Assembly: GCF_000331535.1 (NCBI RefSeq) | Contig: NZ_AMZN01000026.1 | Location: forward strand, 1 to 64,000 | Length of the DNA: 64,000 nucleotides | Reading direction: 5' to 3' | Source: Fulvivirga imtechensis AK7 | GTDB lineage: Bacteria; Bacteroidota; Bacteroidia; Cytophagales; Cyclobacteriaceae | In this document: positions 18,901 through 56,734 of the stretch, in pieces | How positions within the stretch are numbered: position 1 is the stretch's first letter | Layout: each line of letters opens with the position of its first letter | Made by a program: the position numbers and the translations under genes | Notes under the pieces: generated by a model | What the model saw: the letters and a program-made list of their open reading frames with translations, nothing else | The model's database searches: none | Told to the model about the DNA's origin: nothing

Positions 18901-19278
18901 GTGCGACTATTTCTCTATATCCATATCACCAAAGAAAAATTTCACTTTAGCAGCGACCTGCCGGTGCTTATAAGGTCACTTGCTCCTGATGTCACTTTTT
19001 TTGATGTCGACAACTATTCGGATAATGTAACCGTGGACACAGCATTAAAAGCGATCAGGGAGTCAACAAAAACTTTCATTTTTATTGAAGCCGAACCAGG
19101 GCCTGAGCCGGGCAAGCTGCTCCACCTCATAAGCAAGATCACCAAGCTGAAATGTCCCGTTGTCATATTTTACCAGGGAGCACATGAAATGCTCGATAAA
19201 CTGATGATCACATTAAAACGTAAAACGGCAGTTAGCGAAAAGGAAAATCTGGCCGAGGCGGTACGGCATTTTTTCTAA
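18901..19278 (+). CDS. Conserved hypothetical protein, small alpha/beta
   Basis: A 125-aa open frame with a GTG start 2 bp after the preceding stop codon. The sequence alternates strands and helices (LFLYIHITKEKFHFSS, TKTFIFIEAEPG, LKCPVVIFYQG), suggesting a small Rossmann-like cytoplasmic protein. I do not recognise a family or active-site motif. Coupling to the T9SS protein gene suggests shared transcription but no clear shared function. Its stop lies 4 bp before a structured repeat element. Confidence 0.6.
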   Translation: MRLFLYIHITKEKFHFSSDLPVLIRSLAPDVTFFDVDNYSDNVTVDTALKAIRESTKTFIFIEAEPGPEPGKLLHLISKITKLKCPVVIFYQGAHEMLDKLMITLKRKTAVSEKENLAEAVRHFF

Positions 19279-19282
19279 ATAA

Positions 19283-19421
19283 TGCCCCTAAGAAAACTCT
19301 AAGTGGCTTTAAGAAAACGGCAAGGTCAAGGCTTGCGAAGTCCGAACAAGCGGAACGTACTAAGGTACGAGAGCATTTTTGGGACAAGCGTAACGCAGAC
19401 ATTGACGTTTTCTTAGAGACA
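19283..19421. repeat. Structured TIR element, copy A
   Basis: A 139-bp element with TG...CA ends. Terminal inverted repeats at 19283-19296 (TGCCCCTAAGAAAA) and 19408-19421 match at 12 of 14 positions; a second copy of the left end (TGGCTTTAAGAAAA) lies 21 bp inside at 19304-19317. Direct repeats CTAAATAA flank it at 19275-19282 and 19422-19429, as expected for a target duplication. Inside are three hairpins: 19320-19324/19332-19336, 19341-19344/19351-19354 and 19356-19360/19365-19369. The block 19371-19404 is identical to 35359-35392 of copy B. The minus-strand frame across it (19232-19447) is not considered a gene. Confidence 0.82.
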
Positions 19422-20216
19422 CTAAATAATTTTATACTTATCCGCATCCAGGTAGGCCGGAAATTTTTCCCGTAGCCCCCTCACCTCTTCAGGATCAAGT
19501 ACCAATGTTTTAATTTCCTGATGTTCATCCGCATAATGGATTAATTCTCCCTTGGGATTGCTCACTGCGGAGTGACCATTATATGCAATACCATTCTCAT
19601 CTGCCCCTACTCTGTTTACACCTATTACATAACTCAGATTTTCAACCGCACGAGCCTTTAACAGAATATCCCAGGCATTAACCCGTGCAGCAGGCCAGTT
19701 TGCGACATAAACAGCCAGATCGTAAGTCATTTCATTATTAGATCCTTCTGGCAGATTTCTGCTCCATACCGGAAAGCGAAGGTCGTAGCAGATCAACGGG
19801 CATATACGCCAGCCTTTCAAACTTTCAATGAGTTTTTTCCGGCCGGGCGAGTAATGTTCATGCTCATTGGCCATGCGGAACAGATGTCGTTTATCATAAG
19901 TAGAATGCGCTCCGTCAGGTTTCATCCAGATCAGGCGGTTGAAATAATGATTATTTTCCTTTACAATATAGCTCCCACATACAACTGCCCCGGTTTGCTC
20001 AGCCATCTGCCTCATCCATCGGAATGTTCTGAAGTTCATTGGTTCAGCTAATTTCTCAGCATCCATGGAAAATCCTGTGGTGAACATCTCAGGAAGTATG
20101 ATCAGGTCGGTGGGCTCATTGATCTGCCAGATCTTTTCTTCAAACATTGCGAGGTTAGCCTCAGCATTCTGCCAATGCAATTCGGATTGGATAAGTGTGA
20201 CCTTTAGATCTTGCAT
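19422..20216 (-). CDS. Omega-amidase, nitrilase superfamily (YafV/Nit2-like)
   Basis: A 264-aa carbon-nitrogen hydrolase. The catalytic triad is visible: Glu43 (LPEMFTTGF), Lys109 (YDKRHLF) and Cys143 (ICYDLRFP). Length and the MNFRTFRWM and ANWPAARVNAW motifs fit the YafV/omega-amidase branch, which hydrolyses 2-oxoglutaramate or 2-oxosuccinamate. Its start overlaps the upstream aminotransferase by 13 bp, supporting a transamination-deamidation pathway (glutaminase II, or methionine salvage where a 2-oxo acid is transaminated with glutamine). The TAG stop is at the edge of repeat copy A. Confidence 0.9.
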   Translation of the reverse strand: MQDLKVTLIQSELHWQNAEANLAMFEEKIWQINEPTDLIILPEMFTTGFSMDAEKLAEPMNFRTFRWMRQMAEQTGAVVCGSYIVKENNHYFNRLIWMKPDGAHSTYDKRHLFRMANEHEHYSPGRKKLIESLKGWRICPLICYDLRFPVWSRNLPEGSNNEMTYDLAVYVANWPAARVNAWDILLKARAVENLSYVIGVNRVGADENGIAYNGHSAVSNPKGELIHYADEHQEIKTLVLDPEEVRGLREKFPAYLDADKYKII

Positions 20217-34562: not shown

Positions 34563-35429
34563 TTAGTTAGTTTTCGCTGGCAGTACGATCGACCTGGGCT
34601 CCTTTCGCACTGGGATCCTGATGATCAGGTAGTAATTTAGCCCCCACACTACAGTTTCATCGGCACGTCCAAAGCCAGGAATGATGTTAGGTATCAATTC
34701 ATTATTTTCAAAGGTATCCACGCCAAACTTAAACCTGGCTGTATAACCCAGCCAAACCATCCTCCACATTTTTACCTTCATTCCGGCTACCATCTCAAAC
34801 CATTTGGCGTTTATGTCATTATTGGCAACCTGTCCTGTGCCATCGCCAAAAGCCTTATCCCGGTATGAATAGTTTAATTTGTCGCTAAAAGTTGCCATCC
34901 CATATCTCAGCCCAAAAAATAGTGCACTCATGTCAGGATCACGATGCAGGAAATTGATATCCGGTCCTATTCTCAAATAGCTACCTTCTACATTATACAA
35001 GCCATTTTCACTTGTGAAGGTCCTTTCAAGGATACCGTATTCCACATTAAAAAAATAGCGATAAAAATCTATGTCGGCCTGAAACTGATATTCCTTGTAA
35101 TCCTCTCCGATGAAAGATCTGGTAATATTCACCGCCTCAGCGCCAATTCTGATGCCCGTGGGCACAAATTTACCTTTCAACGAATCTATGGGTATTTTGA
35201 GCTCTCCTGCTTCCTGGCAGAAACCGGAGGTAGCTACAAAAAGCAGCAATATATTAGCTAGTGTTTGTAAGAAAATTCTATGTGGCTTTAAGAAAACATT
35301 CCCGCCAAAGGGCGGGTCGAAGTCCCGAAAAGCGGGAGTCCCGTACAACTGTCGGGAGGAGCATTTTTGGGACAAGCGTAACGCAGACATTGGCGTTTTC
35401 TTAAAGCCACTAGTTATATATTTTAACAT
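34563..35429 (-). CDS. DUF6048 outer-membrane protein, 5' end interrupted by repeat copy B
   Basis: The body (IGAEAVNITRSFIGEDYKEY, FQADIDFYRYFFNVEYGILE, LRIGPDINFLHRDPDMSALF) fits the Bacteroidota DUF6048 family, a predicted outer-membrane barrel normally next to DUF6452. The open frame runs back to ATG 35429, but its codons 6-56 come from a repeat element, without stops. Removing 35262-35414 (153 bp, in frame) would join ATGTTAAAATATATA to CTAGCTAATATATTG and give MLKYILANILLLFVATSGFCQ, a normal signal peptide. As it stands the signal helix starts ~55 residues into the protein, so export may be impaired. The true start in the present sequence is uncertain. Confidence 0.75.
   Translation of the reverse strand: MLKYITSGFKKTPMSALRLSQKCSSRQLYGTPAFRDFDPPFGGNVFLKPHRIFLQTLANILLLFVATSGFCQEAGELKIPIDSLKGKFVPTGIRIGAEAVNITRSFIGEDYKEYQFQADIDFYRYFFNVEYGILERTFTSENGLYNVEGSYLRIGPDINFLHRDPDMSALFFGLRYGMATFSDKLNYSYRDKAFGDGTGQVANNDINAKWFEMVAGMKVKMWRMVWLGYTARFKFGVDTFENNELIPNIIPGFGRADETVVWGLNYYLIIRIPVRKEPRSIVLPAKTN
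35262..35409. repeat. Structured TIR element, copy B
   Basis: A 148-bp element with TG...CA ends, homologous to 19283-19421. Terminal repeats at 35262-35275 (TGTTTGTAAGAAAA) and 35396-35409 match at 11 of 14; the inner left copy at 35283-35296 (TGGCTTTAAGAAAA) matches the right end perfectly. CTAG flanks it at 35258-35261 and 35410-35413. Three hairpins: 35301-35306/35311-35316, 35323-35327/35333-35337 and 35339-35343/35353-35357. Their arms differ in sequence from copy A but keep pairing. 35359-35392 is identical to copy A. Confidence 0.82.
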
Positions 35430-54100: not shown

Positions 54101-56734
54101 TTGAGGATCCTAAGTCAAATTCTTTCTTGTCGTACAAAGGCTTTCAGGCTATTGCTAGCAACAGGCATGATCACCCTTTTTATCGGTGTCAATGCCCCTG
54201 AAGCTACTGCCCAGGAAAAGTCTAAGTACGAAAAGATCAACAAGAAAAAGAACAAAGAGAATCGAAGACTTAAGAGGCGGGGAGATAAAGGCAAATCAAA
54301 TAACAAAGCCCTCAGGAGTACCAAGCTCAAAATCCGGTCAAAGCAGGGTGAACGCGCGTTTAAAGGCGATATTACAGGTAGAAAATTTCAAACCAAGCGC
54401 TCTCATAGACCGAATTGGGGCGCTGCAGTAGCAAAGCCTAACCCATATGCCGGAAGGAAAAGAACCAGTGAAGGAAGTAGAGCCAAGGCGTTAAAGCAGA
54501 CACCACGTTATTCTGCCCGGCAAAGAGAAAAAGCGTGGAGAGGCGGCTCAGGAAGGGCTATAAACACCCAATCCAAGCGTATCACCTTTACAGGGAAAAG
54601 ATCATACCAACAACGCAACGCACAGTCCATCTCCCGAGACCCAGAGCGTCCACGGAAGATCACTCGTATTGTACCACGCTCCGCATCAGGAGCTTACAGG
54701 GTCAGGAAAAGAAAAAACCCATACGTATGGCGGGAAAGGTCCAAATGGGAAAGTGCATACCAGGGTGATATTACCGGCCGGAAGTTTCGCTCTAAGAGGA
54801 CACTGGAACGCCCCGGCATACAGCAACCACCCCGGGTAAAATACACCTCCTCAGGAGGGCGCAGAGGAGACCGTGCTTATGACGGTGAAATAAAAGGAGG
54901 CTATCGATCAGCTACCCGTACACGTGAAAAAGCATGGAAAAATGATATTTCAGGGAACAGGCTTCGGATCAGAACCTCCGAGAAGCCAAAGTTTAGTGGC
55001 TCTCAATTTCAAGCATACCCTAAAGGAAAAAGAAGGGGCGACAAAGCTTATAAGGGAAAAATAAAAGGTGGAGATTACCGCAGCATCTCCTCACGTAAAG
55101 AGAGAGCTGGAACTAAAGTTCGCACCTCAAAGCCCCCTGGCTCCGGCACTGTTAAGGCATGGAAATTTCAGGGAAATATCAAATCTGACAAACCACAAAA
55201 AGGTGGAGGTAGCATCAGTGGCAAACGCTGGAACAATAATGGACGTGCCATACAAGGCCGTGGTCCCAGAAGCCAGGATAATAGGATTGCCGGCTTCCAG
55301 GGCAATATTAAAGGTGGCCGAACATACAAAGGAGGCGGCAGCATCAGCGGCAAGCGCTGGAATAATAACGGAAAGGCTATTCAAAGCAGGCAACCACGAC
55401 CGCAGGACCTTAAAGTTGCCGGATTTCAAGGTAGAATAAAAGGAGGCAAAAAACCCCAAGGTGGCGGCAGCATCAGCGGCAAACGTTGGAATAATAACGG
55501 AAAGGCTATTCAAAGCAGGCAACCACGACCGCAGGACCTTAAGGTGGCAGGATTTCAGGGCAAGATAAAAGGTGGCAAAATATATAAGGGTGGTGGCAGC
55601 ATTAGCGGTAGGCAATGGAACAACAAAGGCAGGGCCATCCAAAGCCGGCAACCACGACCACAAGACATTGGAATAGCCAAATTTCAGGGAAATATAAAGG
55701 CGGGACGATCGGAGCGCGCCAGGGATAATTCCAGAAAGTCAGGCTCATACAAGGGAAAAATTCCTGCTTATATGTTACAGAAGGGGCCTAATGATGAACA
55801 TAAATTCACCGGAAACCTTAGGAAAAGACGTGGATATGTTAAAAACCCAAGTTCTGCCAAAGAAGCCTTGAAGGTAAAAGACATGAATCGCGATTATCGC
55901 AGAAATGCTAACTACCGAGGAAAATTGCCGGCATACATGTCAAAAAAGGGGCTAGATGATGAGCACCAATTCAGAGGCAGAATCAAACAACCTAAATACA
56001 AAAAAAGCCCTTATGCAGTAGATGAAGCATTAAAATCTCGCAAGCCTGGTAAGAATGAGAAGCTATCGGCTACTTTTAAGGGATTTAACAAAAGAGGATT
56101 TAAATACAAGAAAAATAAATCGGCCGATGACGAATCTTTGATGGTCAAAAAGCCAGGCAAAAATTATTTCAAAGGTGGTGAGTACCAGGGCAATATTAAG
56201 GTGACCTCAAAATACAAGAAGAGTCCATACTCAGCAGATGAATCGTTGAAAGCGCGTGCTCCGGGCAAAAACGAAAAACTTTCTGCCAATTTTCAGGGTT
56301 TCAATAAAAGAGGATTCAGATATACGAAAAATAAATCCGCATCTGACGAGGCCTTGAAAGTAAGGCCTCCGGGCAAAAACTATTTGGAAGGCGGGAAGTA
56401 TCAGGGGAATGTAAAGATGACCTGGAAATATAGTAAAAAGCCAAATGCTGCTGAAGGTGCCATGAAAGGAATAGGACCATCAAGAGCAGCCATTCAGGCC
56501 AGCAACTACCAGGGCAACATTAAAATGAAAAGAAAAAATGTTGCCGACAGACATCCGGACTTCAAATACCTGAGCAAATCCAGCAGTGGCAAGAGTGAAA
56601 AAGACAAAACATTCAGCTTTAAGTTATTCTGGTCAAAGCTATTTAAGAAAGAGGAAAACCAACCTGATCACTTAAAAGAAAAGGAAAGGAAACCTCGATA
56701 CGATAAAAGAGAACAGGGAATTTGGTATGACTAA
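54101..56734 (+). CDS. Secreted, highly basic repeat protein, unknown function
   Basis: An 877-aa protein rich in Arg, Lys, Gly and Asn. A TTG start (54101) leads into a signal segment (LLLATGMITLFIGVNAPEAT, likely cleavage near AQ). The mature part is almost all repeats: FKGDITGRKF-like units, then four 43-residue units with GGGSISGKRWNNNGKAIQ (from 55202), then two ~74-residue units with SADESLKARAPGKNEKLSAN and FQGFNKRGF. The C-terminal tail is basic. I recognise no domain; a surface or periplasmic matrix component is possible. The next gene overlaps it by 8 bp. Confidence 0.75.
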   Translation: MRILSQILSCRTKAFRLLLATGMITLFIGVNAPEATAQEKSKYEKINKKKNKENRRLKRRGDKGKSNNKALRSTKLKIRSKQGERAFKGDITGRKFQTKRSHRPNWGAAVAKPNPYAGRKRTSEGSRAKALKQTPRYSARQREKAWRGGSGRAINTQSKRITFTGKRSYQQRNAQSISRDPERPRKITRIVPRSASGAYRVRKRKNPYVWRERSKWESAYQGDITGRKFRSKRTLERPGIQQPPRVKYTSSGGRRGDRAYDGEIKGGYRSATRTREKAWKNDISGNRLRIRTSEKPKFSGSQFQAYPKGKRRGDKAYKGKIKGGDYRSISSRKERAGTKVRTSKPPGSGTVKAWKFQGNIKSDKPQKGGGSISGKRWNNNGRAIQGRGPRSQDNRIAGFQGNIKGGRTYKGGGSISGKRWNNNGKAIQSRQPRPQDLKVAGFQGRIKGGKKPQGGGSISGKRWNNNGKAIQSRQPRPQDLKVAGFQGKIKGGKIYKGGGSISGRQWNNKGRAIQSRQPRPQDIGIAKFQGNIKAGRSERARDNSRKSGSYKGKIPAYMLQKGPNDEHKFTGNLRKRRGYVKNPSSAKEALKVKDMNRDYRRNANYRGKLPAYMSKKGLDDEHQFRGRIKQPKYKKSPYAVDEALKSRKPGKNEKLSATFKGFNKRGFKYKKNKSADDESLMVKKPGKNYFKGGEYQGNIKVTSKYKKSPYSADESLKARAPGKNEKLSANFQGFNKRGFRYTKNKSASDEALKVRPPGKNYLEGGKYQGNVKMTWKYSKKPNAAEGAMKGIGPSRAAIQASNYQGNIKMKRKNVADRHPDFKYLSKSSSGKSEKDKTFSFKLFWSKLFKKEENQPDHLKEKERKPRYDKREQGIWYD
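55202..55717 (+). repeat. Four tandem 129-bp repeats inside the basic protein gene
   Basis: Unit starts at 55202, 55331, 55460 and 55589 keep an exact 129-nt (43-codon) period. The second and third units are nearly identical over about 80 bases, the first and fourth more diverged. In-frame period implies selection on the protein and possible copy-number variation. Confidence 0.9.

Follow-up and report, generated by a model that had tools for sequence, protein, structure and literature searches.

MITEs that carry the ends of full-length IS elements are already known in Bacteroidota. In its accessible part, the report on BrickBuilt, MITE239 and other IS5-derived MITEs of Porphyromonas gingivalis gives 19 BrickBuilt copies for strain ATCC 33277 (PMC4596501). 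The IS1202 family was formerly filed in ISNCY, and according to the sections of PMC10132070 at hand it has TGT...ACA ends, a 5-bp duplication, an extra transposase binding site inside the ends and a transposase modelled on TnsB. ISNCY-type IS elements themselves are represented here by NCBIfam NF033593 (transpos_ISNCY_1). If we were to guess, this group is perhaps ISfinder's ISDol1 group.

The element described here occurs twice (copies A and B, Table 1) in the window, i.e. the whole stretch of 64,000 nt that was analysed. It is a high-copy non-coding MITE: it is short and without coding capacity, has inverted ends and a target duplication, is present in many copies, and has its ends in common with autonomous elements in other genomes (L309, G245). 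With the ISNCY-type elements of the genomes G745 and G245 it shares the 16-bp ends and the insertion at TANNTA, but it is less than a tenth as long, and its left end is mostly doubled. As its copies carry no gene, the family is a MITE with ISNCY ends and not an ISNCY element. Like the IS5-derived MITEs of P. gingivalis it is gene-less, lives in Bacteroidota and has the ends of a full-length IS, but the ends are others and so is the IS family, as far as the accessible part of PMC4596501 goes. The doubled left end may be the counterpart of the extra binding site of IS1202; however, the MITE has GTG...CAC ends and a 6-bp TANNTA duplication, and the L309 transposase hits Pfam DDE_Tnp_1, unlike the TnsB-modelled enzyme in the consulted sections of PMC10132070. 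No MITE with these ends is described in the available parts of PMC11448079, PMC8147514 and PMC10132070, and a term search of a review of prokaryote MITEs (PMC10969869) found neither ISNCY nor Bacteroid- in its text.

We propose, with a probability of about 85%, that the family was mobilised in trans by an ISNCY-type DDE transposase (NF033593) at TANNTA. The enzyme would recognise the 16-bp end unit GTGnyTnTAAGAAAAC, move the gene-less MITE in trans and insert it at TANNTA, mostly between genes, duplicating 6 bp; the source transposase would since have been lost, or would lie on unreadable contigs. Gene-less repeats of Bacteroidota would in this way be tied, via their ends and the TANNTA duplication, to a little-characterised transposase group.

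The two copies in the window and their family

The preliminary description of the window had drawn copy A at 19283-19421 and the start of copy B at 35262; comparison with the family replaces these by the bounds in Table 1. Its inverted ends (GTGGCTTTAAGAAAAC against GTTTTCTTAGAGACAC), the tandem left end, the identical 34-nt block and the hairpin arms named for both copies are all found. The 8-bp direct repeats CTAAATAA are also present, at 19275-19282 and 19422-19429, but the family duplication is the 6-bp TANNTA, and the 8-bp match of copy A extends its TAAATA. Copy A starts with ATG, while 75 of 96 family copies start with GTG. Neither copy has a gene of its own.

Table 1. Positions of copies A and B and of their parts in the window.
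Feature	Position	Strand	Basis
Copy A, left target-site duplication TAAATA	19276..19281	.	sequence and family statistics
Copy A, whole MITE, 141 bp	19282..19422	+	direct reading and family comparison
Copy A, outer left end unit ATGCCCCTAAGAAAAC (family consensus GTGTTTGTAAGAAAAC)	19282..19297	+	sequence and family
Copy A, inner left end unit GTGGCTTTAAGAAAAC, 21 bp inside the outer unit	19303..19318	+	
Copy A, cassette 1 variant a, hairpin GCAAG/CTTGC	19320..19336	+	
Copy A, cassette 2 variant a, hairpin CGTAC/GTACG	19356..19369	+	
Copy A, 34-nt conserved core	19371..19404	+	
Copy A, right end unit GTTTTCTTAGAGACAC	19407..19422	+	equals one end of the complete ISNCY element L309
Copy A, right target-site duplication TAAATA	19423..19428	.	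sequence and family statistics
Copy B, left target-site duplication TAGCTA	35255..35260	.	sequence and end pairing
Copy B, whole MITE, 150 bp	35261..35410	+	sequence and family
Copy B, cassette 1 variant b, hairpin CCCGCC/GGCGGG	35301..35316	+	
Copy B, 34-nt conserved core	35359..35392	+	
Copy B, right target-site duplication TAGTTA, one mismatch to left TAGCTA	35411..35416	.	

The 34-nt core matches twice in the window and never in 100 shuffles of it, so its presence in both copies is not chance. The genome from which the window comes (the source genome, 6.7 Mb in 225 contigs) contains 146 places that match the core with at most 3 mismatches, and the reversed control has 0. The idea of a mobile MITE-type element, which an absence of further copies would have undone, is in this way supported. 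A 1.68-Mb sample was picked towards the core matches listed, and is therefore enriched for copies; it holds 94 of the 146 core matches, and at E < 0.05 the right end matches 131 times and the left end 111 times. As at least two elements were matched on both strands, the 131 right-end matches stand for at most 129 distinct elements. Scaling 146 by 131/94, we estimate that the source genome holds roughly 200 recognisable copies.

Most copies are 139-159 bp long. The pairwise identity of 96 copies has a median of 82% and a maximum of 97.8%, so the family is not freshly expanded. When copy A was searched against 38 genomes, the source genome included, matches were found there and in the sister species G001 only, the latter being a single weak one (E 2e-5). 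Among 95 junctions searched for empty sites there were 16 spanning matches, mostly to the flank of the element itself or to other elements; one is a plausible empty site (q1, 40 nt, 87.5%), and two others have low similarity.

With simple ORF calling, 108 matches were placed on pieces of 5 kb or more: 100 lie between ORFs (9 of them touching an ORF end), five lie in an ORF and three at piece ends. The neighbouring genes are tandem in 63 cases, convergent in 21 and divergent in 16, much as the intergenic bases are distributed over these classes (61%, 17% and 22%). Relative to tandem neighbour genes the two orientations occur 39 to 24 times, a weak bias.

Four copies adjoin another repeat, ACGTGAGTTCGATAT, which lies in the window at 27-41 on the minus strand and at 40 places in the 1.68-Mb sample. 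It matches the left end of P. gingivalis MITE239 as printed in the accessible part of PMC4596501.

Ends, target sites and the candidate transposase

The ends of the family are GTG...CAC and consist of a 16-bp unit, usually present twice on the left, 21 bp apart, and once on the right. Among the 131 right-end matches, 103 are paired with a left profile match, 17 have at least one upstream unit and 11 have none. The flanks were compared for 96 end pairs of 120-200 bp, after 7 had been dropped by length. The NN of TANNTA is the same on both sides in 77 of the 96 copies, against 19.0 for shuffled flanks (maximum 32 in 1000), and all six flank bases agree in 59 (shuffled 11.6, maximum 21). The TANNTA flanks are thus a duplicated target site, which is AT-rich and near-palindromic. 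Two copies of 98 and 119 bp with a single left unit also have identical 6-bp flanks, so insertion does not require the doubling on the left.

This duplication bears on two other origins. An origin by a tyrosine recombinase, with a 6-bp spacer between inverted arms, was dropped because the element itself would supply such a spacer, whereas NN differs from copy to copy but is the same on both sides of a given copy. A RAYT-mobilised REP-like element (REPIN), one of the options of the preliminary description, would explain the short palindromic units, the intergenic location and the many copies, but the defined inverted ends and the 6-bp target duplication contradict it. REP/RAYT elements are not known to have inverted ends plus a target duplication; the duplication largely refutes this origin, which we regard as extremely improbable.

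Evidence for the ISNCY-type mover comes from another Bacteroidia genome, G745, where the 1,850-bp locus L309 is a complete ISNCY element. Its transposase has 488 aa, reaches 395.5 bits to NF033593 (cut-off 325) and hits DDE_Tnp_1. The element ends in GTGTCTCTAAGAAAAC, identical in 16/16 positions to the right end of the MITE, and in GTGCCATTAAGAAAAC; its flanks TAATTA and TATTTA differ at one base, and it has no doubled left end. The number of end matches in G745, two, is alone at chance level, and these ends count as evidence because a transposase gene lies between them.

The genome G245 has the ends GTGTTTGTAAGAAAAC (16/16 to the left consensus of the MITE) and GTGTTTGTAAGCAAAC at TANNTA, and the opened contigs run about 120-250 bp into an element ending in one or the other. 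Contig C754 has a variant end, GTGTTTGTAAGCAAGC at TACATA, followed by an open frame, MRKHFEQQLTL..., with 42% identity over 60 aa to the N-terminus of the L309 transposase, and on other contigs the C-terminus of this transposase is followed by GTGCCTGATAGAAAAC at TATATA. In G245 the end joined to the gene is thus the variant, and the 16/16 end GTGTTTGTAAGAAAAC is seen apart from the gene. A more distant element (L259, genome G125) has the ends GTATCTGCCCGAAAAC and GTATCTGCCCGGAAAC with TATTTA on both sides, and its transposase is split into two frames with 216.7 and 76.1 bits to NF033593. Identity between the MITE and the ISNCY elements is confined to the 16-bp ends, the interiors being unrelated. 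Judged from these ends, it is they that would determine mobility, and an ISNCY-type enzyme probably moved the copies of the source genome.

With at most 1 mismatch, among 390 genomes of the order, the end pattern matches 433 times in the source genome (control 0) and 43 times in G245; 16 other genomes have 1-2 matches, which does not exceed the reversed control with its single match in each of 18 genomes. In the class (395 genomes) only the source genome (434) and G675 (243; control 1) have the pattern in abundance, with 1-4 matches in 15 others and a control match in more than 20 genomes.

An IS5-type transposase (NF033578 group) is a neighbour of ISNCY_1 and could also have moved the MITE, as relatives of this type insert at TANNTA too. 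Four loci of the same order (L268, L269, L273, L277) encode proteins above the NF033578 cut-off in elements flanked by TANNTA, with identical flanks in three and 5/6 agreement in L269; the TANNTA duplication alone does therefore not single out ISNCY. However, the IS5-type elements end in GTCGGCCCTGAA... or GTCGTnCCTTAAAAA, unlike GTGTCTCTAAGAAAAC, while the ends in G745 and G245 match in 16/16 positions. An IS5-type mover is already disfavoured on these grounds, and we consider it unlikely. The four IS5_1-type loci also suggest a target preference common to IS5_1 and ISNCY_1.

A transposase with the ends of the MITE, which the preliminary description had proposed to look for, thus exists in the ISNCY element of G745 and, with a variant end, in G245, but is missing from the readable sequence of the source genome, where neither NF033593 nor the L309 protein has a match. 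The copies there look orphaned for this reason, although the absence is provisional since 20 small contigs consist entirely of N. G675 likewise has no relative of the L309 protein in its readable sequence; about 200 copies by our estimate in one genome and 243 end matches in the other are found without a transposase relative in what can be read. In the order, NF033593 has matches in 37 out of 390 genomes, none above the cut-off; those in the sister species G006 and G009 are among the sub-threshold ones, and the G009 locus has none of the MITE-type ends.

A strict test of 33 loci from the NF033593 search found none with GTG/ATG ends of enough symmetry. A looser test found 10 with TANNTA-like ends, against 1 match in total in shuffles of the same 33; apart from L259 they were not taken as evidence for ISNCY, as L272 is probably chance and four are classed IS5_1. 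The one DDE_Tnp_1 gene of the source genome was rejected as autonomous partner, its locus having no MITE ends. End variants continuing CTCS have 7 matches in the source genome, and the three opened (L183, L186, L189) are MITE copies or left ends with no transposase between ends.

Facing ends 250-3000 bp apart form 30 pairs in the 1.68-Mb sample, and 25 of these have further ends in between. The five uninterrupted pairs (four places, one counted twice via a doubled end) span 417-654 bp and contain no open frame longer than 78 aa. These places look like longer gene-less versions, since three of the four, C14:88635 (L090), C51:17075 (L110) and C12:13925 (L031), have identical TANNTA flanks.

The same sample contains a second MITE with the ends of the main one and an unrelated interior, TCATTGCGAACGAAGTGCGGCAATC, for example at C6:264795 (L075) and C37:49475 (L133). 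A strict script finds 6 copies, all 156-158 bp long except for one of 137 bp, and the 6-bp flanks are identical in 5 of the 6.

Hairpin cassettes and covariation

The interior of the MITE has two exchangeable hairpin positions. Cassette 1 is in state a (CAAG/CTTG), in state b (CCCGCC/GGCGGG) or deleted, and for cassette 2 the states are CGTAC/GTACG (a) and TCCCG/CGGGA (b). The 96 copies include each of the six combinations (38, 22, 16, 4, 4 and 4 copies), with 8 unclassified. In at least one element (C14, e94) the interior is inverted between the ends, with the core on the opposite strand. From the free assortment of the cassettes, we infer that they are shuffled among copies through recombination or template switching.

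The preliminary description had read the differing but paired arms of copies A and B as compensatory change, and hence as selection on a fold. The two copies carry different whole cassettes and not point changes, and it is this difference that looked like compensation; cassette swapping can mimic compensatory evolution.

A structured RNA or DNA with a selected fold, spreading as such, e.g. via an RNA copy, would agree with the strong predicted folds and with cassettes that are themselves hairpins, and a diverged core is kept in the sister species G001 (78% over 58 nt). Single copies do fold strongly, A (z -4.7) and B (z -6.4) each better than all 200 shuffles, which is expected from inverted ends plus hairpin cassettes. 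Covariation was evaluated separately for 43 copies with cassette 1a and 40 with 1b, 13 being left out. At E < 0.05 the tree-aware test finds 1 out of 26 helix pairs (1a) and 2 out of 22 (1b) covarying, all in cassette 2, i.e. in the swapped block, where non-pairing column pairs score about as high; helix-supporting covariation beyond phylogeny was thus not found. The null is a simplified version of that of R-scape and assumes a tree, which recombination violates, and the consensus folds used are weak, at -8.1 and -15.9 kcal/mol. Since the 1b consensus fold lacks both the end helix and the long hairpin, the test covers these helices only partly. The tip pair of cassette 1b changes from C-G to T-A in 9 out of 39 copies (E = 0.074), which is suggestive of a selected fold.

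The long hairpin GTCCCAAAAAGC/GCATTTTTGGGAC argues against such selection, as one arm is altered in many copies; in copy A the one-arm change is GTCCGAACAAGC. Arms changing without compensation, which the preliminary description had named as evidence against its reading, are thus seen in part. Furthermore, the window has no Rfam match at gathering thresholds, so no known RNA family is recognised there, and the orientation bias relative to genes is weak. Overall a selected fold is a very unlikely explanation compared with a MITE moved by an ISNCY-type enzyme.

A more speculative view, rather unlikely in our judgement, is that the cassettes are interchangeable parts actively swapped in transposition or replication, and the element a hairpin-exchanging scaffold. 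If so, only the ends and the 34-nt core would be fixed, any self-complementary insert would be tolerated or favoured, and the hairpin interiors with MITE ends in G009, in G675 and in the second MITE would be further cases.

In G675, which belongs to another order of Bacteroidia, the elements opened (L292, L310, L311) are about 180 and 240 bp long and have other interiors, the 180-bp type with hairpins. G009, of the same genus as the source genome, has a small number of elements or lone ends similar to GTGTCTGTAAGAAAAC (L144, L147, L150), with a different, hairpin-containing interior. The window also contains tandem repeats of 129 nt and 216 nt, at 55165-55680 and 55994-56425 respectively, possibly belonging to a repetitive protein.
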